DNA of 64,000 nt from the NCBI RefSeq assembly GCF_003315135.1, contig NZ_QNRK01000003.1:124001-188000 (forward strand). Direction: 5' to 3'. A program made the translations under genes and the position numbers. The DNA comes from Roseiarcus fermentans. GTDB lineage: Bacteria > Pseudomonadota > Alphaproteobacteria > Rhizobiales > Beijerinckiaceae. How positions within the stretch are numbered: position 1 is the stretch's first letter; each line of letters starts with the position of its first letter. Below are positions 11,732 through 56,739 of this stretch, piece by piece. The notes beneath the pieces are model-generated. The model made no database searches, was not told the origin of the DNA, and worked only from the letters and a program-made list of their open reading frames with translations.

Positions 11732-12295
11732 ATGCCGGAAAGCCTGGGCGCGCTCACGAAAGGGGCGCTGGGAGATCTCGGGGCCGTGTTCACCGCCATG
11801 CCGGAGGATGCGCTCGACGGGCTGGTCGAGGCGATCGCCGGGGCGCGGCGCATCGTCGTCTTCGGTCTCGGCCGCGAGGGGCTGCAGATGCGCGGTTTCG
11901 CCATGCGGCTCTTCCACATGGGCCGCGACGTCTCGGTCTGGGGCGACATGACGACGCCCGCGGTGGGTCCCGGCGATCTCCTCATCGTCTCCGCCGGGCC
12001 CGGGGACCTCGCGACCGCCGGCGTGCTCGCGCGCATCGCGCGCTCGGCCGGCGCGAAGACGGCGCTCGTCACCGCTCAGCCCGGCGGCGGGCTCGCCGGC
12101 GAGGTCGACCTCGTGACCGTGATCCCGGCCCAGACCATGGCCGACGACCGCGGCGGCGCGCTCTCCGTCCTGCCGATGGGATCGCTGTTCGAGACGGCGC
12201 AGATGATCGCCTTCGAACTGGCGATCCTGAAGCTCAGGGAGCGTTTCGGCGAGACCGCGGAGACGATGCGGGCGCGGCACACCAACCTGGAATGA
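11732..12295 (+). CDS. SIS-domain sugar-phosphate isomerase, 6-phospho-3-hexuloisomerase-like
   Basis: A 187-residue single SIS domain. RRIVVFGLGREGLQMRGFAMRLFHMG (about residues 38-63), the phospho-sugar loop LLIVSAGPGDLATAGVLARIARSAGAK and the C-terminal GSLFETAQMIAFELAI with RARHTNLE all resemble HxlB/Phi. HxlB isomerises 3-hexulose 6-phosphate to fructose 6-phosphate in the ribulose monophosphate route. No hexulose-phosphate synthase lies next to it, so the real substrate is uncertain. The start at 11732 has GGGAGG five bases ahead. An ATG at 11699 would add 11 residues without a ribosome site. Confidence 0.75.
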   Translation: MPESLGALTKGALGDLGAVFTAMPEDALDGLVEAIAGARRIVVFGLGREGLQMRGFAMRLFHMGRDVSVWGDMTTPAVGPGDLLIVSAGPGDLATAGVLARIARSAGAKTALVTAQPGGGLAGEVDLVTVIPAQTMADDRGGALSVLPMGSLFETAQMIAFELAILKLRERFGETAETMRARHTNLE

Positions 12296-12346
12296 ATCCC
12301 CGCCGGGCGGCGCGCAACCGCAGCGGCGCGCGGGGGCGGCCGGGGC

Positions 12347-13090
12347 CTACATCGCCCAGCCGCCGTCGACGAGGTGGATCTGCCCGGTGGTGAAGGCGCT
12401 CTCGTCGGAGGCGAGGTAGACGGCGAGCGCGGCCACCTCCTCGGGACGGCCGAGCCGCCCCATCGGCTGCCTGTCGACGAACGCCTGCCGGACCGCCGCG
12501 ACGGTGTCGCCCGTCGTCCGGCTCAGCGCGGCGATCCGGCCGTCGAGCGACGGGCTTTCGACCGTGCCGGGGCAGATCGCGTTGCAGCGCACGCCCTTTC
12601 GGATGAAGTCGGCGGCCACCGCCTTGGTGAGGCCGATCACGGCGGCCTTGCTGGCGCCGTAGACGTATCGGTTCGGCACGCCCTTCACCGACGAGGCGGC
12701 CGAGGCCATGTTGACGATCGAGCCGCCGCCCTTGGCCAGCATGCCCGGCAGGAACGCGCGGATCGTCCGGTGCATCGACTTGACGTTGAGGTCGAAGGAA
12801 AAGTCCCAGTCGTCGTCGGCGCAGTCGAGCGCCGAGCCGTGGTGGACGAAGCCGGCGCAATTGAACAGGACGTCGATCGGGCCGAGCGAACGCGCCAGCG
12901 CCGCCACCTCGTCGCCCGAGCGCACGTCGAGCCGGCGCCGGTCGGCGTCGAGCCCGGCGAGCGCGTCGGGATCGATGTCGGTGGCGATCACATGCGCGCC
13001 CTCGCGGAGGAAGGCCTCCGCCGTCGCCCGTCCGATCCCCGCGCCCGCCGCCGTCAGTACCGCAAGCTTTCCCGCCAACCGTCCGGCCAT
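12347..13090 (-). CDS. SDR-family NAD(P)-dependent oxidoreductase
   Basis: A 247-residue classical short-chain dehydrogenase. The nucleotide motif is TAAGAGIGRATAEAF (TGxxxGxG variant), NCAG stands in place of NNAG, the catalytic Ser is in NMASAASSVKG, Tyr-Lys are in YGASKAAV, and the C-terminus is TGQIHLVDGGWAM. The closest named relatives by eye are the 2-keto-3-deoxy-L-fuconate dehydrogenase/3-oxoacyl-ACP reductase-like group. The substrate is unknown. The start at 13090 gives the usual N-terminus (MAGRLAGKLAVL). It stands alone, converging on the SIS-domain gene. Confidence 0.85.
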   Translation of the reverse strand: MAGRLAGKLAVLTAAGAGIGRATAEAFLREGAHVIATDIDPDALAGLDADRRRLDVRSGDEVAALARSLGPIDVLFNCAGFVHHGSALDCADDDWDFSFDLNVKSMHRTIRAFLPGMLAKGGGSIVNMASAASSVKGVPNRYVYGASKAAVIGLTKAVAADFIRKGVRCNAICPGTVESPSLDGRIAALSRTTGDTVAAVRQAFVDRQPMGRLGRPEEVAALAVYLASDESAFTTGQIHLVDGGWAM

Positions 13091-28100: not shown

Positions 28101-30797
28101 GATTCGACCACTTCGGTCATCGACGCCGATCCGGCCGTCGCTTCGACCCTATCCGGGGCGATCGGCGGTCAGTCGACGACGTCCGAGGCGACCGTCAAAC
28201 CGTTCGCCAGCGTCACGATCGGCGACGCCAACGCCAATGCGACCGAAACGCTCTCGATCACGCTGTCGAACGGCGGGGCGGGCGGAACGCTCGCCGGCGC
28301 GGGCCTGGTTGCCGGCGCGGGCGGGGTCTACGCCCTCTCCGGCTCGGCTGCGACCGTCACGAGCGAACTCGACGCCCTCACGTTCACCCCGGCCGCCGGA
28401 GCGCCGAACACGAGCGCGACGACGACGTTCACGCTCAGCGACACGAACAGCGCCTACGCCGCCGCGACCGTCGACTCGACCACGACGGTGACGAACGTCG
28501 ACCCGGCCGTCGCGCCGACCATCTCCGGCGTCCAGCACGGTCTGACGACGACATCGGCGGCGCCGATCGGGCCGTTCGCCCATGTCGTCATCGGCGACGC
28601 CAACGCGAGTGCGACCGAAACGCTGTCGATCACGCTATCGAACGGCGGCGCCGGCGGAACGCTCGCCGGCGTGGGCTTGATCGGCGGGGCGGGCGGCGGC
28701 GTCTACACCCTCTCGGGCTCGGCCGCGACCGTGACGAGCGAACTCGACGCGCTGACGTTCTATCCGGCGCCGCGGTCGACAACGACGTTCACGCTCAGCG
28801 ACACGAGCAGCGCCTTTGCCACGCCCGCGACGAACGCCAACGCCTCGGTGACGGACGTCACCGCGCCGGCCATCGTCGCCGCGTCCTATGTCGGGTCGGG
28901 CTCGAGCGGACACTGGTCCCTGTCGGGCGCTGCGGACGCGGGCGACACGGTGACGATCTACGACGGCGCTCACAGGCTCGGCTCGACGGTCGCGTCCGGC
29001 GGCGTCTGGACTTTCGCCGGCGGCAACAACACGGCGGTCCGCGACTTCACGGTCACGGCGACGGTCGCGGCGGGGAACACCAGCGCGCCTTCGAGCGCGT
29101 GGTATGAGGGAACGCCCGGAAACGACACCTTCTCGTTCGCGTCGCAGGCGGCGCTCGCCGCGGCGGCCGTGATCAACGGCGGGGCGGGCGTGAACACGGT
29201 CCAGCTGACCGCCGGCGCCGCCCTGACCGACGCGGATTTCAGCGCGCTCCACAGCATCGAGGCCCTCGCGCTGAGCGGCGCAAGCAGCGTCGCGCTCGGT
29301 TCGAACGCCGCCGCCGCCGGCATTTCCGCGGTGACTCTGCTCGCCGGGGCCGCTGGTCCGACGAGCATCGCCGACAGCAACGCGGGAACCCTCGCGGTGA
29401 ACGCGGCGGGCCTCGGCGCGGGCGACACTTTGCAGGTCTCGGGCTCGACCGCGGAGGCGATCGCGAACCTGGCCGGCAACCTGAACGCGTCGGCGGCCGG
29501 CGGGACCCTCTCCGTCGCCGCGGTCGGCGCGACGCAGCAGACGATCGCCACGGGCTCCGGCGCCATCACGGTGACGGACAACGCGGCCGGCGGGAGCCTC
29601 GCCATCGACGCCACGGCGCTTCTGGCCAGCAACTCTGTGCGCCTTTACGGCTCTGCAGCGGCGACGGTCACCAACCTCTCCGGCGCGCTCGGAGCCGCCA
29701 ATTCCAGCGGGCCGTTGACAGTCACCGCCGTCGGGACGACGGCCCAGTCCGTGACGACGGGCTCCGGCAAGGCCTCGATCACCGACAAGGGCGCGCGCGG
29801 CATGAACGTCAATGCGGCCAAAATGGCCGCGGGGAGCACGCTGACCCTCGCCGGGTCGGCCAACGAAACGGTCTCCAATTTGGCCGCCGGCCTGGATGCG
29901 TCGGCGGCCAGCGGGACCGTCACCGTCGCCGCGGTCGGCGCGACGCAGCAGACGATCGCCACGGGCTCCGGCGCCATCACGGTGACGGACAACGCGGCCG
30001 GCGGGAGCCTCGCTATCGACGCCACGGCGCTTCTGGCCAGCAACTCTGTGCGCCTGTTCGGCTCTGCAGCGGCGACGGTCACCAACCTCTCCGGCACGCT
30101 CGGAGCCGCCAACTCCAGCGGCGCGTTGCGAGTCATCGCGACCGGGACGACGGCCCAGTCCATGACGGCGGGCTCCGGCAATGCCTCGATCACCGACAAT
30201 GGCGCGGGCGGCATGAACGTCAATGCGGCCCAAATGGCCGCGGGGAGCACGCTGACCCTCGCCGGGTCGGCCGAGGAAACGGTGACCAATCTGGCGGCGA
30301 ATGTGGTGGCGACCGGCCTCTCCGGCGCCTTGAACGTGACGACGACGGGGTTGGCCGCGCATACGATCGCGACAGGGTCGGGCAACGACTCGATCACCGC
30401 CACTCATGGCGGCGACACGATCCTGGCGGGAAGCGGCGCCGACACGATCAATGTCGCGGGCCACGCCATCGCCGACACCTTCACCTACTCGGCGGTGTCG
30501 GACTCGATCAACACCGCCGGCGGCCATGACGCCATCACGGGCTTCGCCGCCGGCGGATCCATCCACGATCTCTTCAACTTCTCGCCGCTCGACCCGAACC
30601 TGAACGTTCAGGGCGGCCTGTCCGGGGCCAACGCCACCGTCAGCGCCGACTCGATCGCCTGGCTCTACAACGGCGCCGGCGCCATGATCTACGTCAATGA
30701 CACTGTGAACACTCTCGCCACGGGCAGCGCAAGTCTGATGGCGATCTCGCTGAAAGGGACGACATCAGGCCTGACCTCTCAAAACTTCAAGGTGTAG
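22101..30797 (+). CDS. Giant GloVer/Ig-like/RTX-type repeat protein, probable secreted adhesin
   Basis: A 2898-residue protein without an N-terminal signal peptide. In order: one Ig-like repeat (APTISG...GDANANATDTLTITLSxGG), a block of seven GloVer repeats (GDLFGTTxxGG...GTVFELVK, about residues 140-490), four Ig-like repeats, a second block of seven GloVer repeats (about 1010-1370), seven more Ig-like repeats, one big-like domain (about 2255-2335) and a Ser/Ala/Gly beta-repeat region. It ends in a short RTX-like stretch (GSGNDSITATHGGDTILAGSGADTI) with a FTYSAVSDS...ITGF segment. The C-terminal RTX part suggests type I secretion and calcium binding at the surface. No type I secretion genes are in the window. 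A surface or biofilm role is inferred. Confidence 0.85.
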   Translation: MSSTQSSGASASAPTISGAVGGQTTAPGAAVDPFAGVTIGDANANATDTLTITLSHGGVGGTLSDSGGFSKLGGGTNGVYTLAGSAATITAELDALVFTPPAGQNSSSTTTFTLSDASSAYGATSYGSTPTVLSVLPSSSFPRGVPVLDGSGDVFGVTQDGGANGEGSAFELVKTGASYTQVTLQSFNGAANGSYPIGGLIADANGDLFGTTGYGGASGGGTVFELVKSGSSYTPSTLVSFPNNGLPESALLADANGDLFGTTYGGAGSVFELVKTGSSYALNTLYAFSSIYSYSGPMAGLIADAGGDLFGTTVGYGANSDGSVFELVKNGTSYTMTTLASFNGTNGSAPEAPLVADAAGDLFGTTTQGGANNGTIFELVKSGSSYALTKLASFSSYNGTYTDGLTIDANGDLFGTTYNGGASGGGSVFELVKSGASYASLLTTLASFSASTGDEPVGMSVDASGNLYVTAFMKGVTASGAVGGGAVLELPLVFTPTATVDSTTTVAVQPAVAPTISGTVAAQATTSEAPVDPFAGVTIGDANPNATDTLTITLSNGGAGGTLADGVGFSKLGGGANGVYTLTGSAATVTSELDALVFPPVAGAPNTSATTTFTLSDTSSAYATATVDSTASVIDADPAVAPTISGTVGGQATTSEAPVDPFAGVTIGDANANASDTLTITLSNGGAGGTLSDGVGFSKLGGGANGVYTLTGSPETVTSELDALVFTPVAGAPNTSATTTFTLSDTSSAYATATVDSTASVIDADPAVAPSLSGTAGGQVTTSEARVNPFVGVTVGDANANATDTLTITLSNGGAGGTLTDPGVFNNLGGGANGVYTLTGSPETVTNVLDGLVFTPNAGQPNTSATTTFTLSDTSSAYAAATTDSTTTVTDVDPALPPTISGTVGGQTTGVASTIAPFANARIADSVAGAIDTVTITLSNAGAGGALSGAGLAGGTGGVYTLAGSAATVTSELDGLVFTPAAGSANTTTTFTLAAVSSAEPTALSSTPTVLAAFGGPDGSYPQGLASDAAGDLFGVTNSGGSGGAGTVFELVKTASGYGAPQTLATFATDAGGANPKAVTLDASGDLFVTLNSGSGASADGQVVELVNTPSGYGAPQTLATFTGPNGADPVAGVTFDAAGDLFGTTTGDWVNNHGTVFEMPKSDTGFGALVTLASFNSYNSKPIGSDPFGDLAVDASGNLFGTASSDGLGGDGTVFELAKTGSGYAAPVAIASFGYFTGQFPVGNLDIDAAGDLFGTTSDTVFEIVKSASGYSAPVSLATFTYGNGLKPGGLMLDASGNLFGTAMYGGDGGAGTVFEIPKTAGGYGAMVTLTGFNSATGLYPAGTLLSDSSGDLFGATGAGGAGGSGTVFELARAATPSVDATTTVNIIAYAPTISGAAGGQTTAAEATVTPFAAVAIGDANANATDTLTITLSNGGAGGTLSDGVGFSKLGGGTNGVYTLAGSAATVTSELEALVFTPTRGQPNASVTTTFTLSDVSSALPTPTVDSTTSVTDVAAAVAPTLSGATGGLVTTSEAAVHPFAAVAVADPNANASDTLTITLSNGGMGGTLSGNGLAGGTNGVYTVSGAAAAITSELEALAFTPTAGQPNTSTTTTFTLSDVSTAYATPTPDATTTVTNADPAVAPVLSGALAGQKTTPNTAFAPFAQVTVGDANANATDTLVIVESNGGVGGALSGTGLGAGAGGVYALSGAAATLTSELDALIFTPAAGQIGATTTFSLIDVSSLYAAPTVDATTTVSVIPAVAPTLSGATGGQTTTSEAAVDPFATVVIGDANPHATDTLTIALSNGGAGGMLSGTGLSGGAGGVYTLAGAAATVTGELRALAFTPVAGQADTTAVTTFTLSDTSSAYGAATVDSTTSVTNVDPAVAPTLSGATAGQATTSETAVLPFANVTDSDANANATDTLAITLSNGGAGGTLSGNGLSGGTNGVYTLPSGSAATVTSELDALVFTPVAGAPNTSATTTFTLSDTSSAYATATVDSTTSVIDADPAVASTLSGAIGGQSTTSEATVKPFASVTIGDANANATETLSITLSNGGAGGTLAGAGLVAGAGGVYALSGSAATVTSELDALTFTPAAGAPNTSATTTFTLSDTNSAYAAATVDSTTTVTNVDPAVAPTISGVQHGLTTTSAAPIGPFAHVVIGDANASATETLSITLSNGGAGGTLAGVGLIGGAGGGVYTLSGSAATVTSELDALTFYPAPRSTTTFTLSDTSSAFATPATNANASVTDVTAPAIVAASYVGSGSSGHWSLSGAADAGDTVTIYDGAHRLGSTVASGGVWTFAGGNNTAVRDFTVTATVAAGNTSAPSSAWYEGTPGNDTFSFASQAALAAAAVINGGAGVNTVQLTAGAALTDADFSALHSIEALALSGASSVALGSNAAAAGISAVTLLAGAAGPTSIADSNAGTLAVNAAGLGAGDTLQVSGSTAEAIANLAGNLNASAAGGTLSVAAVGATQQTIATGSGAITVTDNAAGGSLAIDATALLASNSVRLYGSAAATVTNLSGALGAANSSGPLTVTAVGTTAQSVTTGSGKASITDKGARGMNVNAAKMAAGSTLTLAGSANETVSNLAAGLDASAASGTVTVAAVGATQQTIATGSGAITVTDNAAGGSLAIDATALLASNSVRLFGSAAATVTNLSGTLGAANSSGALRVIATGTTAQSMTAGSGNASITDNGAGGMNVNAAQMAAGSTLTLAGSAEETVTNLAANVVATGLSGALNVTTTGLAAHTIATGSGNDSITATHGGDTILAGSGADTINVAGHAIADTFTYSAVSDSINTAGGHDAITGFAAGGSIHDLFNFSPLDPNLNVQGGLSGANATVSADSIAWLYNGAGAMIYVNDTVNTLATGSASLMAISLKGTTSGLTSQNFKV
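23637..24788 (+). repeat. Tandem 384-bp coding repeats
   Basis: Three consecutive copies of a 128-codon unit start at 23637, 24021 and 24405, exactly 384 bp apart and highly similar in DNA (for example GGCGTAACGATCGGCGACGC recurs). Related but more diverged copies occur once before and eight times after this array in the same gene, twelve in all. The DNA similarity points to recent duplication or gene conversion. Confidence 0.85.
29514..30111 (+). repeat. Near-identical direct repeat, 411-bp period
   Basis: The segment at about 29514-29700 recurs at about 29925-30111 with very few changes (encoding VGATQQTIATGSGAITVTDN, then AAGGSLAIDATALLASNSVR in both). The spacing of 411 bp equals 137 codons. 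It is a recent in-frame duplication inside the C-terminal third of the giant protein. Confidence 0.85.
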
Positions 30798-46205: not shown

Positions 46206-47207
46206 TCAGGCCTTATCCAACAGCAATTTGCCCGTGGTCTCGTCGGTCACGAGATAGTTGGCGTAGCCGCCGGCGAGCGCAGCCTTGATCGCCTCGATCT
46301 TGTCGACCCCCGAGGCGACCATGACGCCGCAGCTCGCGGCCTTGATCCCCTCGGGCGTGACGCCGATCATGCGCGCGTCCATCTCGCCGACGACATGGCG
46401 CCCGTGGACGTCGATGAACCGCCCGCAGATCACGCCGACCGCGCCCTGGCGCCGATACGCGTGCAATTCCTCGGCGTCGACGATGCCCGACTGGACGAGG
46501 TGCGTCGTCTCCGAACAATTGCCGACGGAAAACAGCGTCTTCGTCAGCTCCCCGAGCTTTTGCAGCTGGGTGTGGATGATGGGCTCGTTCTTCAGCGCCT
46601 CGGCGATTTCCCGGCTCGACAGGATCGCCGGGGCGTGGAGCGTGTAGCAGTCGGCGCCGAGGCTGGAGGCGATGCGGATCGAACTCGTCTCGGCCGCCGG
46701 GAGCAACGGCGACTTCATCGAGCCGATCATCTGGCAGATCGTCAGATTGCGGACGTTTCCGCGCGGCATCTCCTCGGACAGCCACTGGATCGTTTCGCCC
46801 CAGGCGACCCCCAGCACGTCGCCGGGTTGCACCAGATCGTAGACCGCCATGGCGCCGACGCGCGCGACCTGGCGGCGGACGTCCCGGGCGAGCTTCTCGG
46901 GATTGACGTCCGGGCCGGGATACACCGACGCGATGTAGACGTCTTCGAGTCGGTATGCCTCACGCAGGTCCTTGGACAGTTTCGAGACCGAAAAGGACGC
47001 GCCGTTGATCCGGATGTCGACGATGGCCTGCTCGCGCGCCTGGCGCAGATAGTTGACCACCGTCGCGCGCGAAACGCCGATGCGCTTGGCGATCTCGCCC
47101 TGCGTCAGCCCGTCCTTGTAATAGAGGATCGCCACGTTCGCGAGCACGCTCGCGCTTCTTTGCGGGAGAACCCGCTCGTCCTTCGCCGTCGCGAGATCCG
47201 AGGTCAT
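46206..47207 (-). CDS. SorC-family sugar-binding transcriptional regulator
   Basis: A 333-residue protein. The N-terminal helix-turn-helix is ANVAILYYKDGLTQGEIAKRIGVSRATVVNYLRQAREQ (about residues 22-60). The effector domain is of the SorC/DeoR-like phospho-sugar type (GDVLGVAWGETIQWLSEEMP, CQMIGSMKSPL, SLGADCYTLHAPAILSS, GVMVASGVDKIEAIKAALAGGYANYLVTDETT). It is expected to respond to a phosphorylated sugar of the adjacent pathway. It lies 74 bp downstream of mtnA on the same strand and probably controls the divergent promoter at 49.7 kb. Confidence 0.9.
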   Translation of the reverse strand: MTSDLATAKDERVLPQRSASVLANVAILYYKDGLTQGEIAKRIGVSRATVVNYLRQAREQAIVDIRINGASFSVSKLSKDLREAYRLEDVYIASVYPGPDVNPEKLARDVRRQVARVGAMAVYDLVQPGDVLGVAWGETIQWLSEEMPRGNVRNLTICQMIGSMKSPLLPAAETSSIRIASSLGADCYTLHAPAILSSREIAEALKNEPIIHTQLQKLGELTKTLFSVGNCSETTHLVQSGIVDAEELHAYRRQGAVGVICGRFIDVHGRHVVGEMDARMIGVTPEGIKAASCGVMVASGVDKIEAIKAALAGGYANYLVTDETTGKLLLDKA

Positions 47208-47281
47208 CGAGGCGGTTCCACCATGTCAACGAGAGCGTCGCCGCGCGGGGGCGCGCTGCGACGGCCAGTCGGCAAGCCCGC

Positions 47282-48376
47282 TCACCCGCGCTCGGGAAAC
47301 AGGGCCTTCAGCCCCTCGCGCGAGGCTTCCGCCACGCCGCGTTCGGTGATCAGGCCGGTCACGAGCCGCGCCGGCGTCACGTCGAAGGCCGGGTTGGCGA
47401 CCGGACTGGCGTCGGGCGAAATCCGCACCCGGACGATCGCGCCGTCGGCGTCCCGCCCCTGCACGAACGACACTTCGTCCCCGCCGCGCTCCTCGATCGG
47501 AATCTCCTTGACGCCGTCGTCGACGGTCCAGTCGATGGTCGGCGACGGCAGCGCCACATAGAACGGCACGCCGTTGTCCCGCGCCGCGAGCGCCTTGAGA
47601 TAGGTGCCGATCTTGTTGCACACGTCGCCGCGGGCGGTGGTGCGGTCGGTGCCGACGATGACCATGTCGACCAGACCGTGCTGCATCATGTGGCCGCCGG
47701 CGTTGTCGACGATCAGGGTATGGGGAACGCCGTGGTTGCTCATCTCCCAGGCGGTGAGATGGGCGCCCTGATTGCGCGGCCGGGTCTCGTCCACGAACAC
47801 GTGCACCGGCAGGCCCTCTTCCATCGCCAGATAGATCGGGGCGGTCGCGGTGCCCCAATCCACCGTCGCGAGCCAGCCCGCGTTGCAATGGGTGAGGATG
47901 TTGACGCGCTCGCCGGGCTTCTTGCCCGCGGCGATGCGGCGAATGATCGCCAGGCCCTCGGCGCCGATCGCGCGGTTGAGGGCGACGTCTTCGTCGGCGA
48001 TTTCGGCGGCGCGCGCGTAGGCCGCGGCGGCGCGGGCCGCTGGGGACAAAGGACGAAGCAGTTTGCGCATGTCGTCGAGCGCCCAGCGCAGGTTGATCGC
48101 GGTCGGGCGCGTTTCGTGAAGCTTCTCCCAGGCGGCGTCGAGCGCGGCGTCGCCGGCGTCCTCGCGCATCGCCATCGCCACGCCATAGGCGGCCGTGACC
48201 CCGATCAACGGGGCCCCGCGCACCCACATGTCGCGGATCGCGACGGCGGCGTCCTCGACGCTGCCGAGCGTGACCACCCGAAACGCGTGCGGCAGCCAGC
48301 GCTGGTCGATGATATCGACGCTGCGCCCGTCTTGGTTGAGCCAGATGGTACGGTAGGGGCGGCCCTGGATGTTCAC
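47282..48376 (-). CDS. mtnA: S-methyl-5-thioribose-1-phosphate isomerase (MtnA family)
   Basis: A 364-residue aldose-1-phosphate to ketose-1-phosphate isomerase. The catalytic Cys lies in [10 protein letters not shown] (residue 164), the catalytic Asp in [19 protein letters not shown] (residue 244), and [13 protein letters not shown] is the N-terminal signature. All are conserved, matching Cys160/Asp240 of the Bacillus enzyme. Known members act on 5-methylthioribose 1-phosphate or 5-deoxyribose 1-phosphate. It starts with GTG, overlapping the mtnK stop by 4 bp (GTGA), so the two are coupled. Confidence 0.93.
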
Positions 48377-49635
48377 GATACGCTCCCCGCGTCGAGGCGC
48401 TCGGCGAGGGCGGCGATCCGGCCCAGGCCCTGAAGCGCGCTCCGGTTGACGGCCAGATGCCGCCCGAACTTCAGCGCCGCGGCTTCGCAGCGCGCCCTCA
48501 GATTCGGATCCTCGATCGTCTCGAAATCCGCGTTGTGGGCGAGGCCGAGGATGCGGCGATGAATCTCGACGCCGGCGAAGCCGAGCATGTCGACCCAGAC
48601 CCCGTGCAGAACGCAATCGAGCGCCTGCTCGGCGGCGAGGGCGTCGCCCTGATCCTCGAACAGGGCGCGCGGGTAGAGAATGCCGGTCCGCTCGGTGCGC
48701 CACAGCCGACCGAACTCGGCGCAGAACACGCGCCAGATCTCCTCGACGACGCCGAGGAGATAGGCCCGCATCGGTCCGCGATCGCCGTTCGCCTCGTGCC
48801 CGGCCTGCGCGAAGTAGTTCATCCAGAAGTTCGCCAGCATCATGCCGACGTCGAACGCCATCGGTCCGTAGAACGCGAACTCCGGATCGATGACGCGGGT
48901 GTCGTCGTCGGTGACCATGACCGATCCGGTGTGGAGGTCGCCGTGAAGCAGCGTCTCGGCGTTGGCTGCGAACAGGTGCTTCAGCCGCTGAGCCTCGACC
49001 TTGAGATCGCGATCGGCGCGGAGCTCGGCCACCAGTTCGTCGAGCTGTGGGCTCGTATGACGGTTCTTTTCGGCGGCGAAATAGGGATCGGAGAACACCA
49101 GATCCTCGGTGATCGCGCACAGCGCCACATTGTCGGCGAACAGCGCGAGATCCGCCTTGCGTCTGGCGGTCTCCATCGAAAGGTCCGAGCCGCGAAACAG
49201 CGTGCGCGCCGCGAACAGGCCGAGATCGCGCGCGACCTTCGGCAGTCGCCGGCCCTCGATCAGCGCCCGCCGCAGGATCACGTGCGGCGTCAGGTATTCC
49301 ATGACGACCAGCGCCTGGTCGGCGTCGAAATGGAACACTTGCGGCGTGCGGCCGGGGTCGCGTTCGGCCTGCCTGATGAGCGCGTTGGTCTCGAAAAACG
49401 TCCGCTTGAGCGGCAGCGGCCAGCTTTCGCCGACCAGCCTCACGTAGGGCAGCGCCTGCTTGACGACCGCGCTCCCGGCCTCGCCCTCGACGATGAAGAC
49501 CAGATTGAGGTTGCCGTCGCCGACCTCGCGCACGCGCCATCGCGCCGTGCGTTCGCCGATCCGCGCGCGTAAGGCCGCGTTGCTCGCGAGCCGCTCGGCG
49601 AGCGTCTCCACGGTCAGCGCTTGGAACCCTTGCAT
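48373..49635 (-). CDS. mtnK: S-methyl-5-thioribose kinase (MtnK family)
   Basis: A 420-residue kinase with an aminoglycoside-phosphotransferase-like fold that phosphorylates the anomeric carbon of 5-methylthioribose. The catalytic loop is [14 protein letters not shown], the metal-binding motif [18 protein letters not shown], and the N-lobe [13 protein letters not shown] and [20 protein letters not shown]. All are typical of MtnK. The start at 49635 ([16 protein letters not shown]) is chosen over an upstream frame extension to 49731 that would cross the operator. It is the first gene of the minus-strand transcript mtnK-mtnA-sorC. Confidence 0.93.
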
Positions 49636-49710
49636 GGTCGCCCCCCGTTTGTGTCGAGCGAACGGCGCCGGCGGCGCCGAAACGCCAATTCGATACGCGA
49701 TATCGCTAGC

Positions 49711-49733
49711 AAATGTCAATTGACTTGACATTT
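49711..49733. promoter_or_regulatory. Perfect inverted repeat, likely SorC operator
   Basis: AAATGTCAA-TTGAC-TTGACATTT, perfect 9-bp arms around 5 bases, in the 131-bp divergent region between mtnK and the ABC transporter genes. The right arm contains a TTGACA that could also be a -35 for the plus-strand operon, so binding would block it. A half-site-like ATGTCAA lies at 47223-47229 just upstream of the SorC start. Confidence 0.7.
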
Positions 49734-49766
49734 ACCACATGACCGGGCAAGGGAGTCGCCGTCCTG

Positions 49767-51296
49767 ATGGGCCGAGGGGAGGACTGGGTGGTCGAGAATG
49801 CGGCGTTCCGTATCGAGGGACTGCGCAAGTCGTTCGGCCCGGTTCAGGTCCTCGACGGCGTCGACCTGACGCTGCGCCCGGGCTCCGTCACCGTCCTGAT
49901 GGGCGCCAACGGAGCGGGAAAATCGACGCTGGTCAAGATCGTCAGCGCCGTCCACCCCCGCGACGCCGGGCGGATCACCCTCGCCGGACAGCCCTATGCG
50001 CCCGCCTCGCCCGCCGAAGCGATCCGCGCGGGCGTCGTCACCGTGCACCAGAACATCAACGACGGCGTCGTCGCCGGCCTCGACGTCGCCACCAACCTCA
50101 CCCTCGACCGGCTGAACGGCTCGGGCGCCGGGTTCTTCTTCAATCCGCGCCGCGTGCGTCGCCAGGCGCGCGCGGTCGCCGAGCGCATGGGGCTTCGCCT
50201 CGATCTGAAAGCCGAGGTCAGCGCCCTGACCCTCGCCAATCGCCAGCTGGTGGCGATCGCCCGCGCGATGGCGCACGAACCCAAGGTCCTGATTCTCGAC
50301 GAGCCGACGTCGTCGCTTTCCAGCGCCGAGGCGGACCGGCTGTTCGAGGTGCTCGATCGCCTGCGCGCCAACGGCGTCGCCATCCTCTATATTTCGCATC
50401 GCATGTCGGATATCCGGCGCCTCGCCGACACCATCGTCGCCTTGCGCGACGGCCGCGTCTCCGGCGTTTTCGAGGGACCGGCGCTCGACTACGAGGGCGC
50501 CGTCGACGCCATGCTCGGCAAGAAGACCAGTCTCGACGCCGTGGTCGTGCAGGACGCGTCCGACCCGGTGCTCCGGGTCGACGCTCTGCGGCTCGCGCCG
50601 GGGGCGCGGCCCTTTTCGCTCACCCTCGCCGACGGCGAGATCGTCGTCGTCACCGGGCTCGTCGGGGTCGGCAAGACGGCGCTCGCCGAAACGCTGTTCG
50701 GCGCCCGCGCGCCGATCGGCGGGACCATGACGCTCGACGGCGCGGCCTACGCGCCCGCTTCGACGCGGCGCGCGATCGAACGCGGCGTCTTCCTGATCGC
50801 CAAGGAGCGCACGGAAAGCGGCGTCGTCCCGGATTTCAATCTCTACGAGAACATCAGCCTTCCCTTCCTGAAGCGCCTGTCCTCGTTCGGCGTCGCCAAT
50901 CGCGGCCGGGAACGCGCGCAGGCGCGCGCCCAGATCGACTCGCTCGGCATCGTCTGCCGGACGGAGCGGGACGACCTGCAGACGCTGTCGGGCGGCAATC
51001 AACAGAAGGTGGTGGTCGGGCGCTGGTTGAGCCAGTCGGCGCGGGTGTTGATCCTCGACGAGCCGTTCCAGGGCGTCGACATCGCCGCGCGGCGCGACAT
51101 CGCGAGCAAGCTGCGCGCCTCGGCGCGCGGGCGCGCCACGCTGTTCTTCCTGACCGAGCTGGACGAAGTGTTCGAAGTGGCCGACCGGATCCTGGTGATG
51201 TCGGAACATACGCTGGTCGGCGAACACCGGAATTCCGGCGTCGACAGTCAGAGGCTTCTGGCCGAGATCGCGGGCCGGATCGGGAAGGCCGCTTGA
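49767..51296 (+). CDS. Sugar ABC transporter ATP-binding protein, RbsA type
   Basis: A 509-residue tandem ATPase. The first half has Walker A LMGANGAGKSTLVKIV, signature-like LTLANRQLVAIARAM and Walker B VLILDEPTSSLSSAEADRLF. The second half has a degenerate Walker A VTGLVGVGKTALAETLF and a good signature LSGGNQQKVVVGRWLS with Walker B LILDEPFQGVDIAARRD. This is the ribose/galactofuranose-type layout. A GTG at 49788 preceded by AGGGGAGG at five bases is an equally good start. It opens the plus-strand operon facing mtnK. Confidence 0.93.
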   Translation: MGRGEDWVVENAAFRIEGLRKSFGPVQVLDGVDLTLRPGSVTVLMGANGAGKSTLVKIVSAVHPRDAGRITLAGQPYAPASPAEAIRAGVVTVHQNINDGVVAGLDVATNLTLDRLNGSGAGFFFNPRRVRRQARAVAERMGLRLDLKAEVSALTLANRQLVAIARAMAHEPKVLILDEPTSSLSSAEADRLFEVLDRLRANGVAILYISHRMSDIRRLADTIVALRDGRVSGVFEGPALDYEGAVDAMLGKKTSLDAVVVQDASDPVLRVDALRLAPGARPFSLTLADGEIVVVTGLVGVGKTALAETLFGARAPIGGTMTLDGAAYAPASTRRAIERGVFLIAKERTESGVVPDFNLYENISLPFLKRLSSFGVANRGRERAQARAQIDSLGIVCRTERDDLQTLSGGNQQKVVVGRWLSQSARVLILDEPFQGVDIAARRDIASKLRASARGRATLFFLTELDEVFEVADRILVMSEHTLVGEHRNSGVDSQRLLAEIAGRIGKAA

Positions 51297-51297
51297 A

Positions 51298-52365
51298 ATG
51301 ACGGACGAGACGAAACGCGACGGCGCCTTTGCCGCTTCCGGGGGGCGACCCGCGCGGGTCGCGACCACGACGGCGGCCCTCGACATCGCGATCAAGTACG
51401 GCTTTCTCGCCCTCCTGGCCGGCCTGATCGTGTTCTTCAGCGTTATGTCGACCGGCTTCGCCTCGGCGCAGAGCGCGGTCTTCATCCTGCAATCGGTCTC
51501 CATCACCGGCATTCTGGCGCTCGGCGTCACGGCGACGCTGGTGGTCGGCGGGTTCGATCTGTCGATCGGCGCGGTCGCGACGACCGCGATGATGGCCTCG
51601 GCCTATGTCATGGTCGTGTTGCGCGGCGACGCGGTCAGCGCAACTCTGGCGTGCCTCGCCATCGGCGTGATCGTCGGCCTCCTCAACGGCTTCCTGATCG
51701 TCTACATGCGCGTCCCCGACCTGCTGGCGACGCTCGGCATGATGTTCCTGCTCGTGGGGCTGCAACGCATCCCGACCGAGGGCCGCTCCATCGCCACCGG
51801 CATGACTCTCCCCGACGGATCGGTCGCGACCGGCAAGTTCAGCCCCGGATTCCTCGCCCTCGGTCGCCACCGCTTCGATCTCGTCGTTCCCGATCTCCTG
51901 CCGGTCTCGGTGGTCGTGCTGCTGACGCTGGCGGTGCTGATCTGGTTCTTTCTCGAATACACCCGCTTCGGCCGCCTGATGTACGCCGTCGGCTCCAACG
52001 CGCGCGCGGCGCAACTCGCCGGAACCCCGGTCAACGCCTACCGGATCGGCGCCTACGTCATCTCCGGCGTGTTCGCCTCGATCGGCGGCGTCATGCTGGC
52101 TGCCCGCCTCGGCCGGGGCGACATCGCTTCGGGCAACAATCTTCTGCTCGATTCGGTCGCGGCGGCGCTGATCGGCTACGCGGTGCTCGGCGCCTCCAAG
52201 CCCAACGCCTTCGGCACCGCCATCGGCTCGCTGTTCGTCGGCGTGCTCCTGCAGGGGCTGACGATGATGAACGCGCCCTATTACACCCAGGATTTCGTGA
52301 AGGGGGCGGTGCTCGTGATCGCCCTGGTGTTCACTTTTGCGCTCTCGAAGACAGGCAAACGCTGA
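51298..52365 (+). CDS. Sugar ABC transporter permease, RbsC type
   Basis: A 355-residue permease with 8-10 TM helices. SITGILALGVTATLVVGGFDLSIGAVATTAMM is the conserved RbsC-type motif. The cytoplasmic EAA-like loop is TRFGRLMYAVGSNARAAQLAGTPVNAYRIGAYVISGV, and the end NNLLLDSVAAALIGYAVLGASKPN is also family-typical. It begins one base after the ATPase stop, so the two are coupled. With the next gene it completes a monosaccharide-type importer. Confidence 0.94.
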   Translation: MTDETKRDGAFAASGGRPARVATTTAALDIAIKYGFLALLAGLIVFFSVMSTGFASAQSAVFILQSVSITGILALGVTATLVVGGFDLSIGAVATTAMMASAYVMVVLRGDAVSATLACLAIGVIVGLLNGFLIVYMRVPDLLATLGMMFLLVGLQRIPTEGRSIATGMTLPDGSVATGKFSPGFLALGRHRFDLVVPDLLPVSVVVLLTLAVLIWFFLEYTRFGRLMYAVGSNARAAQLAGTPVNAYRIGAYVISGVFASIGGVMLAARLGRGDIASGNNLLLDSVAAALIGYAVLGASKPNAFGTAIGSLFVGVLLQGLTMMNAPYYTQDFVKGAVLVIALVFTFALSKTGKR

Positions 52366-52432
52366 CGGCAAAGAAACATCGGGGCGTCAGCGAATCGAGC
52401 GCTTTAGCCGGTGTAACGCGGAGGAGAAACCA

Positions 52433-53485
52433 ATGACAATGACGCGTAGAGGTCTGGCCGGGTTCGTCCTGGGGCTGCTGGGCGCGACCGCGCTGGGGAG
52501 CGCTGCCTGGGCCGCCGGCGAGCCGGCCCCGTTCGATCACCCCGAGAAGGTCAAGATCGCGCTGGTGCGTTATCTCTCGACCGGCGACTTCTTCCAGTCC
52601 TATCTCGCCGGCGTGCAGGCGCAGGCCAAGGCGCTCGGCGTCGACCTGCACGTCTTCGACAGCCGTCAGGACGCAGCGCTTCAGGCGGACATGGTCGACC
52701 AGGCGATCGCGCTCGGCGTCAACGGCATCATCATCCAGCACGGCCTGACCGAATCGATGAAGGAGGCCGCCGCCCGCGCCGTCAAGGCCGGCATCAAGGT
52801 CGTCGCCTTCGACGTCAACGTCGAGAACGACAAGATTCCCCAGATCGAGCAGTCGGATCGCGATCTGGCGCGGCTGGCGCTCGAGCAAGCGATCAAGGAC
52901 AACGGCGAAAGCTGGAAGGCCGGCTATGTCTACGTCGCCGGCATCGCCCCGCTCGACCGGCGCGACGAGACCTGGAAGGCGTTCAAGGCCAAATACCCGG
53001 GCATCAAGGAAGTCGCGATGTTCGGCACGCTCGACAACCCGATCGCCAATTCGGTGGCGAACCAGGCGCGCTCGGTCATCTCCGCCCACCCCGACATCAC
53101 CGTGATGTTCGCGCCCTACGACGAATTCGCCAAGGGCGTGAAAATCGCCGTCGACGAAGCGGGCATGTCGTCCAAGGTCAAGATCTACTCGGCCGACATC
53201 TCGACCTCGGACATCTCGGCGATGCGCGAACCCGGCAGCGCCTGGGCGGCGACCGCGGCCACCAACCCGGCGGTGGTCGGTCAGGTGTCCGTGCGCGCGC
53301 TGGCGATGCTGCTGGCGGGCGAAGATCCGGGACACGAAGTCATCGTGCCGCCGACGCTGATCACGCAAAAGCAGCTCAACGACAACGACATCAAGAATAT
53401 GGAGGAGCTCGCGGTCAAGCTGCCGCAGTTCGCCCACGCCGATGTCGCCGTGCCCAAGTGGATGCCCTTGCCCGGCGCAAAATAG
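52433..53485 (+). CDS. Sugar ABC transporter substrate-binding protein, RbsB type
   Basis: A 350-residue periplasmic binding protein. A signal peptide covers about residues 1-27 (RRGLAGFVLGLLGATALGSAAWAAGE). The body has STGDFFQSYLAGVQAQAKALGVDLHVFDSRQD, DMVDQAIALGVNGIIIQHG and VVAFDVNVENDK, of the ribose-binding type. GAGGAG six bases before the ATG at 52433 fixes the start. The neighbouring kinase and isomerase suggest a free pentose or 5-substituted pentose as ligand, but the pocket cannot be read from sequence. Confidence 0.92.
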   Translation: MTMTRRGLAGFVLGLLGATALGSAAWAAGEPAPFDHPEKVKIALVRYLSTGDFFQSYLAGVQAQAKALGVDLHVFDSRQDAALQADMVDQAIALGVNGIIIQHGLTESMKEAAARAVKAGIKVVAFDVNVENDKIPQIEQSDRDLARLALEQAIKDNGESWKAGYVYVAGIAPLDRRDETWKAFKAKYPGIKEVAMFGTLDNPIANSVANQARSVISAHPDITVMFAPYDEFAKGVKIAVDEAGMSSKVKIYSADISTSDISAMREPGSAWAATAATNPAVVGQVSVRALAMLLAGEDPGHEVIVPPTLITQKQLNDNDIKNMEELAVKLPQFAHADVAVPKWMPLPGAK

Positions 53486-53652
53486 GGCTCTTCACTGGTT
53501 TCCGCGGGGTCCCGGCCAGCGGCCGATCAGATCGCGACCCCGCGGACCAGCGAAAACCGGAGCGGCGCCTCCCCGTCCCCGCCGGGACATCGTCGGGAGG
53601 CGCCCGCACGGCGGGCGAGGCCCGCGAACGACCGATCGACGGAGACGGCCAC

Positions 53653-54579
53653 ATGGACAACGCAAAGTCGACCGGGGATGTCGCGCTCGGCATTCGCCGT
53701 CGCGTCTTCGAGCATTCGATCCGCAACAACGGCGGCTACATGAGCCAGGCGTGTTCGGCGGCCGAACAGCTCGCCTGGCTCTACAACGAGGAACTGCGCC
53801 TCGGCGAACCCACGCTGCCGATGATCCCGAAACCCTTCGGCGGCGTCCCGAGCGCGGGAAACACGGACTATCAAACCGGCGCCGGCTACAATGGGCCGGC
53901 CGAGCCGCAATACGACCGCCTGTTCATCGCGCCCGCGCATTACGCGCTGGTCGCCTATGCGACGCTGATCGAGGTGGGCCGAATGGCGCCCGAAGGCCTC
54001 GAGATGTTCAACAAGGACGGCTCCTCGGTCGAGATGATCGGCGCCGAGCATTCTCCCGGCATGGAGATGCACAACGGCACGCTCGGCATCGGCCTTTCGA
54101 CCGGGGCGGGCCTCGCCTGGGGGCGTCGCCGCAAGGGCGAACCCGGCCGGGTCTGGGTGTTCATGTCGGACGGCGAGGTGCAGGAGGGCCAGGTCTGGGA
54201 AGCCGTGCAGGCCGCGGCCTACCACGCCATCGACAATCTCTACGCCATCATGGACGTCAACGCCCAGCAGTGCGACGGCGCGATGGAAAGCGTGATGGAC
54301 GCCCGCGACATCCGGGCGAAGTTCGAGGCGTTCGGCGCCCGCTGCGTCGAGATCGACGGCCACGACCTCGAGGCGTTGCGCCAGGCCGCGCGGGAACCGC
54401 ACCCGGGCAAGCCGCTGATCATCCTCGCCCACACCGTTCCCTATCGGGGAATGAGCTTCCTCAAGCGCCGATTCCCGCGGCTGCACTACGTCCGCTTCCA
54501 GTCTGAGGAGGAGCGGGCGGACATGAACGGCGCCATCGCCGAGGAACTCGGAATCCCGCCCGTCGATTACGCTCATTGA
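53653..54579 (+). CDS. Transketolase, N-terminal (TPP-binding) subunit
   Basis: A 308-residue split transketolase half. The start region RRRVFEHSIRNNGGYMSQACSAAEQL is followed by FIAPAHYALVAYA, NGTLGIGLSTGAGLAWGRR and the TPP motif SDGEVQEGQVWEAVQAAAYHAIDNLYAIMDVNAQQ. The usual GDG of the TPP motif reads SDG here. Transketolases move a two-carbon ketol unit between sugars using TPP. The start at 53653 has GGAG eight bases ahead. The frame is open upstream to 53458 but overlaps the binding-protein gene. The C-terminal half follows 10 bp later. Confidence 0.9.
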   Translation: MDNAKSTGDVALGIRRRVFEHSIRNNGGYMSQACSAAEQLAWLYNEELRLGEPTLPMIPKPFGGVPSAGNTDYQTGAGYNGPAEPQYDRLFIAPAHYALVAYATLIEVGRMAPEGLEMFNKDGSSVEMIGAEHSPGMEMHNGTLGIGLSTGAGLAWGRRRKGEPGRVWVFMSDGEVQEGQVWEAVQAAAYHAIDNLYAIMDVNAQQCDGAMESVMDARDIRAKFEAFGARCVEIDGHDLEALRQAAREPHPGKPLIILAHTVPYRGMSFLKRRFPRLHYVRFQSEEERADMNGAIAEELGIPPVDYAH

Positions 54580-54589
54580 GGTCGCGCCC

Positions 54590-55594
54590 ATGGTCGAGAT
54601 GGTCACACGTCCCTACGCCGGCGCCTTCGAGGCCTACGCGCTCGCCCACCCCGAGGTGCTCTGCCTGTCGGCGGACCTGACCTCGTCGTGCGAGATCGAC
54701 GGTTTTCGCGACCGCCATCCGGAGCAGTTCGTCTCGCTCGGCATGGCCGAGCAGAACATGATGAGCTTCGCCGGCGGGCTCGGCCTCGCCGGCTTCCGGC
54801 CGTTCCTGCACACCTTCGGCGTCTTCCTCTATCGCCGCCCCTACGATCAGCTGATCGCCTCGGTCGCCTATCCGCGCCGCAAGGTGCGGCTGATGGGGTT
54901 CCTGCCCGGGGTGACGACGCCGGGCGGCATGACGCATCAGGCGATCGAGGACATCTCGGTGATGCGCTCGATCCCCAACATGACGATCCTCGAGACCGGC
55001 GACGCGACCGAGGTCGAATCGATCTGCGCGGCCGCCGACTCGATCGACGGCCCAGTCTATTGCCGCGTGCTGCGCGGCTCCGTGCCGCGCCTGTTCGACA
55101 GCCCGATCGAGGTCGGCCGGATGCGCGAGCTCAGCGCCGGGTCGGACGTGCTGGTCGTCACCGCCGGCGTCGCGACCGAGGAGGCGTTGCGCGCGCGCGG
55201 CGCGCTGAAGGCCGCGGGCGTTTCGATCCGCCACCTCCACATCAACACCGTCAAGCCGTTCGACGAGCGGCCGCTGCTCGACCACATCGCCAGTGTCAAG
55301 CACGGCGTGATCACGCTCGAAAACCACGTCACCGAAGGCGGCATCGGTTCACTGGTCGCCGAGATCATGGCGGATCACGGCGTCGGCAAGCGGCTGATCC
55401 GCCTCGGCCTCAAGGACACCTACGCCCACGGCGGATCGCGGCCCTATCTGATGCGCCACTACGGACTCGACGCCTCGGCGCTGGTCGCGGGCGTCGAAAG
55501 GTTGCTCGGGCGCATATTCGGCGTTACCGAGGCCGACCTCGACGCCGTTCGCGTCGACGCCGTCCATTCGTCCGCCAAGGCGGAGGCGCTATGA
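54590..55594 (+). CDS. Transketolase, C-terminal subunit
   Basis: A 334-residue pyrimidine-binding and C-terminal half. The catalytic Glu lies in FVSLGMAEQNMMSFAGGLGLAGFRPF, with substrate loop GVTTPGGMTHQAIEDISVMRSIPNM and C-terminal domain VTLENHVTEGGIGSLVAEIMA-type segment. The residues PYDQLIASVAYPRRKVRLMG are typical of the DXS/transketolase PYR domain. GAGGT precedes the ATG, and its stop overlaps the RuBisCO-like start (ATGA). With the N-terminal subunit it makes one TPP enzyme, probably acting on the product of the RuBisCO-like protein. Confidence 0.9.
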   Translation: MVEMVTRPYAGAFEAYALAHPEVLCLSADLTSSCEIDGFRDRHPEQFVSLGMAEQNMMSFAGGLGLAGFRPFLHTFGVFLYRRPYDQLIASVAYPRRKVRLMGFLPGVTTPGGMTHQAIEDISVMRSIPNMTILETGDATEVESICAAADSIDGPVYCRVLRGSVPRLFDSPIEVGRMRELSAGSDVLVVTAGVATEEALRARGALKAAGVSIRHLHINTVKPFDERPLLDHIASVKHGVITLENHVTEGGIGSLVAEIMADHGVGKRLIRLGLKDTYAHGGSRPYLMRHYGLDASALVAGVERLLGRIFGVTEADLDAVRVDAVHSSAKAEAL

Positions 55595-56739
55595 CCAGCC
55601 GGTTCGTCGTCCACTATCGCATCTTCGCCTCCAGCCGCGACGAAGCCGCCGAGCGCGCCGCGGGAATCGCCCTCGAGCAGACGGTCGAGATTCCGCGCGA
55701 CGTCGTGCCGCGCGGCTATATCGAGGACGAAATCGTCGGGCGGATCGAGTCGCTCGCCGAGGAGGACGAGGGGCGCCATCTGGCGCGGATCTCCTACAGC
55801 CCCGACAGCGTCGGGGCCGAACTGCCGCAGCTGCTCAACGTCATGTTCGGCAACTCCTCGATCCAGAAGGGGATCAAGGTCGTCGGGCTCGATCTCGGAG
55901 CGACGCTCGCGGAGCGCTTTCCCGGGGCCCGGTTCGGCGTCGACGGCGTGCGCCGGCGCGCCGGGCGGCCGGCGGGAGGGCTGATTGCGCCGGTCATCAA
56001 GCCGCAAGGCAGCGACGCCGACACCCTCGCGGGCATCGCCTATCGCTGTGCGCTCGCCGGGGCGGACGTGGTCAAGGACGATCACGGCCTGACCGACCAG
56101 GCGATGGCGCCGTTCCGGACGCGGTGCGAAAAGGTCGCGTCTGCGGTCGCGCGGGCCAACCGCGAGACGGGCGGCTCGTGCCTCTATTTTCCCAATCTGG
56201 CGGGGCGCAGCGACGACCTGATGGATTTCGCCGGTTTCGCCAGGGATTGTGGCGCGGGCGGCGTCCTCGTCATCCCGGGCCTGTTCGGGTTCGACCTGAT
56301 CCGCCGGCTGGCGGCGGACGAGACGTTCGACTTGCCGATCATGGCGCACCCGAGCTTCCTCGGCAGTTCCGTGCTCTCGGACACGTTCGGTTTCACCCAC
56401 GGCATGATGTTCGGCGTCCTTCAGCGCCTGGCCGGCGCCGACATCTCGATCTTCCCCAACGTCGGCGGCCGATTCGGCTTCAGTGCGGCCGAGTGCCTCG
56501 ACATCGCCGGCGCGTGCCGCGACCCGGCCGGCGTCGGCAGACGGATCTTTCCCAGTCCCGGCGGCGGCATGAGCGTGGAACGCGCCGGCGACATGAAGCA
56601 GATGTACGGCGACGATGTCGTGTTCCTGCTCGGCGGCAGCCTGTTGCGCTACGGCGACCGGATCGGCGAGGCGATCACCGCAATGAGGAGCGCGCTGAGG
56701 GCCGCGAACGGCCGCGCCCAGTCGGAGCCAGCCGACTGA
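55591..56739 (+). CDS. RuBisCO-like protein (form IV)
   Basis: A 382-residue member of the RuBisCO large-chain superfamily. IAPVIKPQGSDADTLAG carries the K175-equivalent Lys (residue 137) and ADVVKDDHGLTDQ the Lys that is carbamylated in true RuBisCO (residue 162), followed by DDH rather than DDE. IMAHPSFLGS, FGFTHGMMFG and FPSPGGGMSVERAGDM are phosphate-site loops. The loop 6 GKLEG motif of true RuBisCO reads NVGGRFGFS, so the K334 equivalent is absent and CO2 fixation is not expected. With MtnA and MtnK it is more likely an enolase or sugar-phosphate isomerase of a methylthioribose-like pathway; a decarboxylase role (as in apionate pathways) is the alternative. Confidence 0.92.
   Translation: MTSRFVVHYRIFASSRDEAAERAAGIALEQTVEIPRDVVPRGYIEDEIVGRIESLAEEDEGRHLARISYSPDSVGAELPQLLNVMFGNSSIQKGIKVVGLDLGATLAERFPGARFGVDGVRRRAGRPAGGLIAPVIKPQGSDADTLAGIAYRCALAGADVVKDDHGLTDQAMAPFRTRCEKVASAVARANRETGGSCLYFPNLAGRSDDLMDFAGFARDCGAGGVLVIPGLFGFDLIRRLAADETFDLPIMAHPSFLGSSVLSDTFGFTHGMMFGVLQRLAGADISIFPNVGGRFGFSAAECLDIAGACRDPAGVGRRIFPSPGGGMSVERAGDMKQMYGDDVVFLLGGSLLRYGDRIGEAITAMRSALRAANGRAQSEPAD

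Follow-up and report, generated by a model that had tools for sequence, protein, structure and literature searches.

A predicted 5-methylthioribose salvage operon in Roseiarcus fermentans that joins a RuBisCO-like protein to a split transketolase-like enzyme

Which sugar would be consumed, and by what route, where a RuBisCO-like protein (RLP) is encoded beside a transketolase that is split into two genes? The question is raised by positions 46206-56739 of a 64,000-nucleotide stretch of the Roseiarcus fermentans genome (the window), where genes for a SorC-type regulator, MtnA and MtnK lie on the minus strand and, divergent from them on the plus strand, genes for an importer ATPase, a permease, a binding protein, the two subunits of the split enzyme (TktN and TktC) and the RLP. 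The 3' end of the TktC gene overlaps the start of the RLP gene. An initial annotation, made from the sequence alone, had named an RLP, MtnA, MtnK, a split transketolase and a sugar importer and had proposed 5-methylthioribose or 5-deoxyribose as their substrate; profile and PDB matches find all of these parts. We suggest, with a probability of roughly 60%, that the locus is an operon for the salvage of 5-methylthioribose (MTR), in which import, MtnK, MtnA and the RLP lead to a transketolase-like cleavage by the split enzyme.

In this scheme, the ATP-binding cassette (ABC) importer would take up MTR, MtnK would phosphorylate it at C1, and MtnA would yield 5-methylthioribulose 1-phosphate (MTRu-1-P). 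The RLP would shift the carbonyl from C2 to C4, giving 1-methylthioxylulose 5-phosphate (MTXu-5-P), and the split enzyme would cut the C2-C3 bond of this product via a thiamine diphosphate (ThDP) adduct, freeing glyceraldehyde 3-phosphate. By analogy with the mechanisms of phosphoketolase and sulfoacetaldehyde acetyltransferase, the CH3S-CH2-C fragment left on ThDP might undergo beta-elimination of methanethiol, forming acetyl-ThDP and from it acetate or acetyl phosphate. This elimination is the least certain step, and we consider it doubtful. Endogenous methylthioadenosine (MTA) could also join the route at MtnA, since an MTA phosphorylase is encoded on another contig (TIGR01694, 296 bits; cut-off 275) and the MtnA of the locus is the sole IF-2B/MtnA match of the genome. 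The predicted steps as far as MTRu-1-P rest on equivalog matches, with MtnA and MtnK both above their NCBIfam cut-offs (TIGR00512 and TIGR01767), and the putative cleavage on gene context and active-site residues. We infer every reaction of the chain from what the sequences display directly, namely gene content, conservation, the clade of the RLP, a shared palindrome and an altered enzyme pocket.

A protein-alignment scan of GTDB contigs returned 355 stretches encoding a relative. The best 80 of these, together with the window, three plasmid loci and one genome locus, form a set of 85 loci, in which gene presence was scored by identity thresholds of our choosing; many loci are cut by contig ends, and 57 retain flanks of 9 kb or longer on either side. 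Most of the related loci come from Alphaproteobacteria. In 82 of the 85 (in L039 as a contig-end fragment only), no more than 100 bp separate TktC from the RLP, an adjacency that is far beyond chance, and the three loci without an adjacent TktC have TktN and TktC elsewhere in the genome at 80-83% identity. MtnA is found in 68 loci, MtnK and the binding protein in 61 each, the SorC regulator in 57, a fusion of aldolase and dehydrogenase in 49, a nucleoside phosphorylase (PNP) in nine and a BisC-family, S-oxide-reductase-like protein in eight. Several of the 17 loci without a local MtnA end at contig borders, and seven of the eight such genomes tested have MtnA elsewhere. An RbsD/FucU-type mutarotase, recognised by Pfam match, occurs in 17 loci, all of them of the kinase type.

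The placement of the RLP bears on the isomerase step. In a maximum-likelihood tree of 55 rows (rooted for drawing only, and with a long-branch warning for the MtnW, Vibrio and L032 rows), the window RLP falls in a 30-row clade (100/100), which two plasmid rows, from Rhizobium and Mariluticola, join at 87/76. This clade is sister to a 9-row clade (99/98) with 3qfw, and the two together have support of 96/90; the tree, used to check DeepYkr-clade membership, thus places the window RLP beside the 3qfw clade and not within it. We take 3qfw to be RLP1 of Rhodopseudomonas palustris. From MTRu-1-P, R. palustris RLP1 makes MTXu-5-P and 5-methylthioribulose 5-phosphate in a ratio of 3:1, and a cupin gene lies next to that for RLP1 (PMC5893883). 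The glutamate position of the RuBisCO KDDE motif is histidine in 85 of 85 window-type rows and in 9 of 9 rows of the 3qfw clade, so that KDDH is common to both; it is glutamate in all ten OiaX-like rows and in the MtnW and RbcL rows shown, and aspartate in the Vibrio row. A loop with an invariant His270 marks the transketolase-linked RLPs (85/85) and is gapped in the cupin-linked ones (9/9). A methylsulfurylase-type cupin gene adjoins the RLP in seven of eight sister-clade loci (the exception being L010/L035), and no cupin gene was found near the RLP in the 80 kept loci, within the available flanks. From clade and motif, we predict that the window RLP is an MTRu-1-P 1,3-isomerase. An MtnW enolase was also considered and rejected, given a score of 151 bits (TIGR03332 cut-off 513.6) and a separate branch in the tree.

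Split transketolases and OiaX are both found in apiose pathways, and the RLP might accordingly be an OiaX-type decarboxylase of apiose-type metabolism that acts with a split transketolase of the apulose-phosphate type. The ten OiaX-like rows form a distant group, though, the window RLP lies outside it and scores 60.8 bits against an OiaX cut-off of 700, and we are aware of no function for MtnA and MtnK in metabolism of this type; we rejected this assignment as exceedingly improbable. Clustering with OiaX, together with a binding protein that prefers an apiose-like or other unrelated sugar, was what the initial annotation had named as damaging to its proposal, and because the RLP clade is sister to that of the proven isomerase and far from the OiaX-like rows, the tree leaves that proposal intact.

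Two loci show further RLP surroundings. A Vibrio nigripulchritudo plasmid (L030, 9944-14563) carries a TktN-TktC-RLP triple with FGGY kinases nearby and no MtnA or MtnK match, in which the RLP is just 31% identical and the KDDH motif is missing. In L070, a flavin-monooxygenase-like gene (11216-13018, minus strand; Pfam FMO-like) adjoins the RLP.

The identity of the sugar is suggested by the importer, an RbsABC-type system of three proteins, ATPase, permease and binding protein. In a phmmer search of the PDB, the last of these was matched best by 4ry8 (E 9e-67), an entry titled 5-methylthioribose transporter solute binding protein Tlet_1677, from Thermotoga lettingae. A Foldseek search with an AlphaFold2 model built from 17 sequences (mean pLDDT 84) gave 4ry8 chains as its first three matches (best E 2.4e-32, with 38% identity over the whole domain), followed lower down by 5ulb (1.9e-26) and the ribose-binding protein 2dri (2.7e-19). 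From this likeness, the window protein probably binds 5-methylthioribose.

The kinase and isomerase cannot distinguish methylthioribose from 5-deoxyribose, and DrdK of Bacillus thuringiensis takes both sugars with similar kcat/Km (PMC6079011). The substrate might therefore be 5-deoxyribose from 5'-deoxyadenosine, which the RLP would convert to 1-deoxyxylulose 5-phosphate (DXP) and the split enzyme to glyceraldehyde 3-phosphate plus acetaldehyde or a donated two-carbon unit. An amidohydrolase in related loci matches the 5'-deoxyadenosine deaminase model, among others and below cut-off, and the transketolase of Synechococcus elongatus acts on 5-deoxyribose, yet as an acceptor and promiscuously (PMC8102628). 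Set against this, the solved structure closest to the binding protein is that for methylthioribose, genes of the BisC family are repeatedly found next to the split enzyme, and the proven function of the sister RLP clade concerns a methylthio sugar (PMC5893883), and we regard 5-deoxyribose as an unlikely substrate. Thus, of the two sugars in the initial annotation, methylthioribose is favoured by the binding protein and the BisC genes, and the 5-deoxyribose branch through DXP is not. The described 5-deoxyribose salvage (DrdK-DrdI-DrdA) and dihydroxyacetone phosphate shunts resemble the locus in having a kinase or phosphorylase with an MtnA-like isomerase, and sometimes sugar transporters (PMC6079011), but their hallmark is a class II aldolase, and an RLP and a split transketolase are outside that pathway.

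With MTR as the proposed substrate, the cleavage step would fall to the split enzyme. Among solved structures, TktN is best matched by the N-terminal chain (6yak) and TktC by the C-terminal chain (6yaj) of a split transketolase from Carboxydothermus hydrogenoformans, also a two-gene ThDP enzyme. We compared 82 TktN and 83 TktC sequences with E. coli TktA and Dxs; the E. coli stretch used began after the first 45 residues, with His26 mapped via Dxs His49, and the equivalents of His461 and His263 were outside the resolved part of the comparison. Residues at E411, H473, H66, D155, N185 and R520 are invariant; of the 83 TktC sequences, 80 keep R358 and 82 keep S385. The residues that bind ThDP and Mg and those that bind phosphate in canonical transketolases are thus present, and those that contact sugar hydroxyls are replaced, His26 by Gly (81/82), His100 by Met (82/82) and Asp469 by Gly (83/83); the Arg91 position is Asn. 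The Carboxydothermus chains, in contrast, keep both G-H-P motifs and E-D-G. In transketolases, His100 recognises the C1 hydroxyl. Given the retained ThDP and phosphate residues and the three replacements, the pocket of TktN/TktC would still suit a ketose 5-phosphate, without the usual hydroxyl contacts. Two published studies report that Asp469 of the E. coli enzyme contacts Arg91, His100, Gly99 and His26 (PMC6310800), and that substrate residues in Lactobacillus salivarius are His28, His263, Ser384, Arg357, Arg520, His461 and Asp469 (PMC4601599).

The chain may also run as proposed and end differently, with TktN/TktC passing the CH3S-CH2-CO unit to an acceptor or freeing methylthioacetaldehyde, and without elimination of methanethiol. 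The retained ThDP residues and phosphate site agree with such an outcome, and the aldehyde could be processed by the dehydrogenase-aldolase fusion of 49 loci or by aldo/keto reductase-like genes, seen by eye close to the RLP in some of five loci (L051, L060, L065, L100 and L107). On the other side stands the loss of the Asp469 equivalent in all 83 sequences; the D469T variant of E. coli transketolase is five times as active on propionaldehyde, an aldehyde without a hydroxyl group (PMC6310800), and this lowers the likelihood that the acceptor is a hydroxylated sugar. We consider this ending possible, with the odds against it. As for the elimination itself, no conserved acetate-forming neighbour was recognised by eye among the gene clusters found in at least four of 84 loci, most of which had no family search. 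DhaL-like genes were also noted by eye, further out, in a set similar to the five loci above.

Two versions of the locus provide entries to the split enzyme beyond those in the initial annotation. In the phosphorylase version (e.g., Ponticoccus), a BMP-type importer, PNP and the amidohydrolase take the place of the ribose-type importer and MtnK, and seven of the nine PNP loci lack MtnK; the other models that the amidohydrolase matches, also below cut-off, are for MTA and S-adenosylhomocysteine deaminases. The second version is found on a Paracoccus seriniphilus plasmid (L163, 2441-11005), where TktN and a TktC of 82% identity have as neighbours a SorC regulator, a zinc dehydrogenase and a BisC-family gene, together with two enzymes that score below their model cut-offs, namely an FGGY kinase resembling xylulokinase (290 bits for TIGR01312, against 380) and an epimerase resembling AraD (245 bits, against 251). 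No RLP or MtnA was found in the 21 kb of that stretch, the rest of the genome not having been searched. The module recurs in L129, with members 63-83% identical and no RLP in the stretch, and its dehydrogenase, epimerase and BisC recur in L040 and L041 (57-80%) with a PfkB-type kinase and an RLP. Two of the BisC-family proteins were scored against TIGR00509 and, with 901 and 845 bits, stayed under its cut-off of 1018.

The xylulokinase-like and AraD-like partners point to a donor of the xylulose 5-phosphate type, and BisC to a sulfur substituent; MTXu-5-P as a common donor would fit this. We tentatively suggest that TktN/TktC may be a new ThDP enzyme whose single active site would both cleave the carbon-carbon bond of MTXu-5-P and release its sulfur, yielding glyceraldehyde 3-phosphate and methanethiol along with acetate or acetyl phosphate. 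As a shared terminal module, the enzyme would be fed from MTR or MTA by the RLP or, without an RLP, by the dehydrogenase, xylulokinase-like kinase, AraD-like epimerase and an S-oxide reductase; the odds remain clearly against this complete version.

The phosphorylase version raises a separate point of provenance. The BMP, PNP, amidohydrolase, MtnA and BisC proteins of L114 (Enemella evansiae) and L025 (Ponticoccus) are 95-97% identical, and given that the former is an actinobacterial assembly and the latter a Rhodobacterales plasmid, this reflects either recent transfer or a contaminated assembly. A 336-aa protein with a signal-peptide-like start is encoded behind the RLP of L025 (13166-14176) and has a 97% identical copy in L114; it gave no Pfam or NCBIfam match.

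Further linkage among these genes is suggested by a palindrome, TGTCAA-N5/6-TTGACA, which the intergenic regions of 57 divergent MtnK-ATPase pairs have in common (exact in 34 of the 57). Allowing at most one mismatch, there are 76 sites across the 85 loci, where three mononucleotide shuffles gave 2.0 on average, although counts from related loci are not independent. Sites occur upstream of MtnK (57/61) and the ATPase (53/59), and also of the aldolase/dehydrogenase fusion AldSDR (8/49), SorC (8/56), TktN (5/78), PNP (2/9) and BMP (2/5); five of the 76 sites lie elsewhere. TTGACA is the sigma-70 -35 hexamer, and because of this, back-to-back promoters could give such a pair. Two findings count against back-to-back promoters: three of the five TktN sites (L053, L057 and L077) lie between co-directional genes, and, within the range 0-10, spacer lengths of 5 and 6 stand out (23 and 53 sites), each of 0-4 and 7-10 having at most four. 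A second spacer peak at 12-13 (12 and 25) is without explanation. We read the palindrome, as a candidate operator and not as proof, as the mark of one regulon linking the kinase, importer, phosphorylase and split-transketolase genes.

Several findings weigh against the proposed MTR salvage function or against arguments made for it. BisC occurs with MtnK in none of the eight BisC loci, so that its hint of sulfur is indirect for the window locus. The split enzyme does not appear to be exclusive to the RLP/MtnA route, since neither is present in the L163 stretch. Of the 61 kinase-type loci, 51 encode a class II aldolase, either standalone or as a fusion with a dehydrogenase, and MTRu-1-P may thus also be split directly by an aldolase; the window locus has none, and a 36% homologue of the fusion is encoded elsewhere in the source genome. 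The altered pocket is not unique to this family, a claim that we dropped: four other split transketolases with other neighbours have Tyr, Tyr, Tyr and Leu at the Asp469 position, and in a printed alignment those of Agrobacterium larrymoorei and Pantoea also have Gly and Met at the His26 and His100 positions, with both His kept in those of Phaeobacter and A. tumefaciens. These plasmid enzymes differ in being about 32-36% identical to TktC and in having annotated neighbours without RLP, MtnA or MtnK. The absence of MtnD (ARD) was likewise dropped as support. It has no match in the source genome or in 30 relative genomes, but 130 of 142 genomes of the class also lack an ARD above cut-off (12 have one), and its absence is therefore uninformative.

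The source genome also encodes, unlinked to the locus, a methylsulfurylase-like cupin that is 48% identical to an RLP-linked cupin, and the product of the RLP could therefore go to DXP here. This weakens the idea that the split enzyme stands in for the cupin in all genomes. The unlinked cupin and the Paracoccus seriniphilus enzyme, with its xylulokinase-like and AraD-like partners and no nearby RLP, also favour a reading in which the RLP hands its product to this cupin, in a normal MTA-isoprenoid shunt that ends in DXP and methanethiol, and TktN/TktC acts on another sugar. Such a division of labour is hard to reconcile with a TktC that abuts the RLP in 82 of 85 loci, and none of 30 relative genomes gave a full-length cupin match (28 gave none and two weak partial matches only); we judge it quite improbable. 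The core that we retain, i.e., importer, MtnK, MtnA, a predicted 1,3-isomerase and a dedicated split transketolase, as the initial annotation had it, is well supported by the RLP clade, the 4RY8 match and conservation.

Among known systems, the MTA-isoprenoid shunt (Rhodospirillum rubrum; R. palustris RLP1 with its cupin methylsulfurylase) shares with the window-type loci an MtnA-type isomerase, a related RLP with KDDH and the same predicted RLP product, MTXu-5-P. It differs in using a cupin where these loci have the split transketolase-like enzyme; R. palustris uses MtnP, whereas importer and kinase are found in 61 of the 85 loci, and the shunt yields DXP, whereas the products predicted here are glyceraldehyde 3-phosphate and a two-carbon unit. 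Universal methionine salvage proceeds through MtnB-C-D or MtnW-X and differs in that the source genome has no MtnD match and the window RLP is not MtnW; no MtnB or MtnC was found in the locus, no genome-wide search for them having been made. The initial annotation knew of no description of such an end-route, and we found none of the operon in the open-licence PMC literature, including the available parts of PMC6302742, PMC6079011, PMC5893883, PMC6310800, PMC4601599, PMC7895386, PMC4958253 and PMC8102628. Within that literature, we therefore take the operon as a new form of RLP-dependent MTA/MTR salvage.

Table 1. Coordinates of the features of the locus (window positions) and of the unlinked cupin gene, with predicted roles and supporting matches
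Feature	Position	Strand	Evidence
SorC/DeoR-type sugar-responsive transcriptional regulator	46206..47207	-	PF04198, 200 bits
mtnA, 5-methylthioribose-1-phosphate isomerase	47282..48376	-	TIGR00512, 427 bits (cut-off 279)
mtnK, 5-methylthioribose kinase	48373..49635	-	TIGR01767, 494 bits (cut-off 275)
Palindromic operator candidate TGTCAA-N5-TTGACA, mtnK/importer gap	49714..49730		exact site
ABC importer ATPase, RbsA type	49767..51296	+	PF00005
ABC importer permease, RbsC type	51298..52365	+	PF02653
Periplasmic binding protein, probably for 5-methylthioribose	52433..53485	+	phmmer and Foldseek matches to 4ry8
TktN, N-terminal ThDP-binding subunit, split transketolase-like enzyme	53653..54579	+	best PDB match 6yak, E 6e-38
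TktC, C-terminal subunit, split transketolase-like enzyme	54590..55594	+	best PDB match 6yaj, E 2e-55
RLP, predicted 5-methylthioribulose-1-phosphate 1,3-isomerase	55591..56739	+	PF00016; best PDB match 3qfw, E 6e-76
Cupin of the source genome	G000:C5:168123-168548 (L156 8115-8624)	-	beside pst/phoU/phoB-like genes (by eye)

Elsewhere, the source genome has this one RLP and two RuBisCO large-subunit matches (446 and 420 bits), which lie close together on a different contig, C10, at about 80-85 kb. The window also contains an open reading frame of 2898 aa (22101-30797, plus strand).

If the proposed pathway is correct, methylthioribose, which S-adenosylmethionine chemistry yields widely as a by-product, would have one more fate, and a RuBisCO-like protein one more metabolic partner. 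The proposal includes a directly testable claim about an enzyme of the transketolase fold with a rebuilt sugar pocket. The pathway could also add a source of methanethiol in Alphaproteobacteria.

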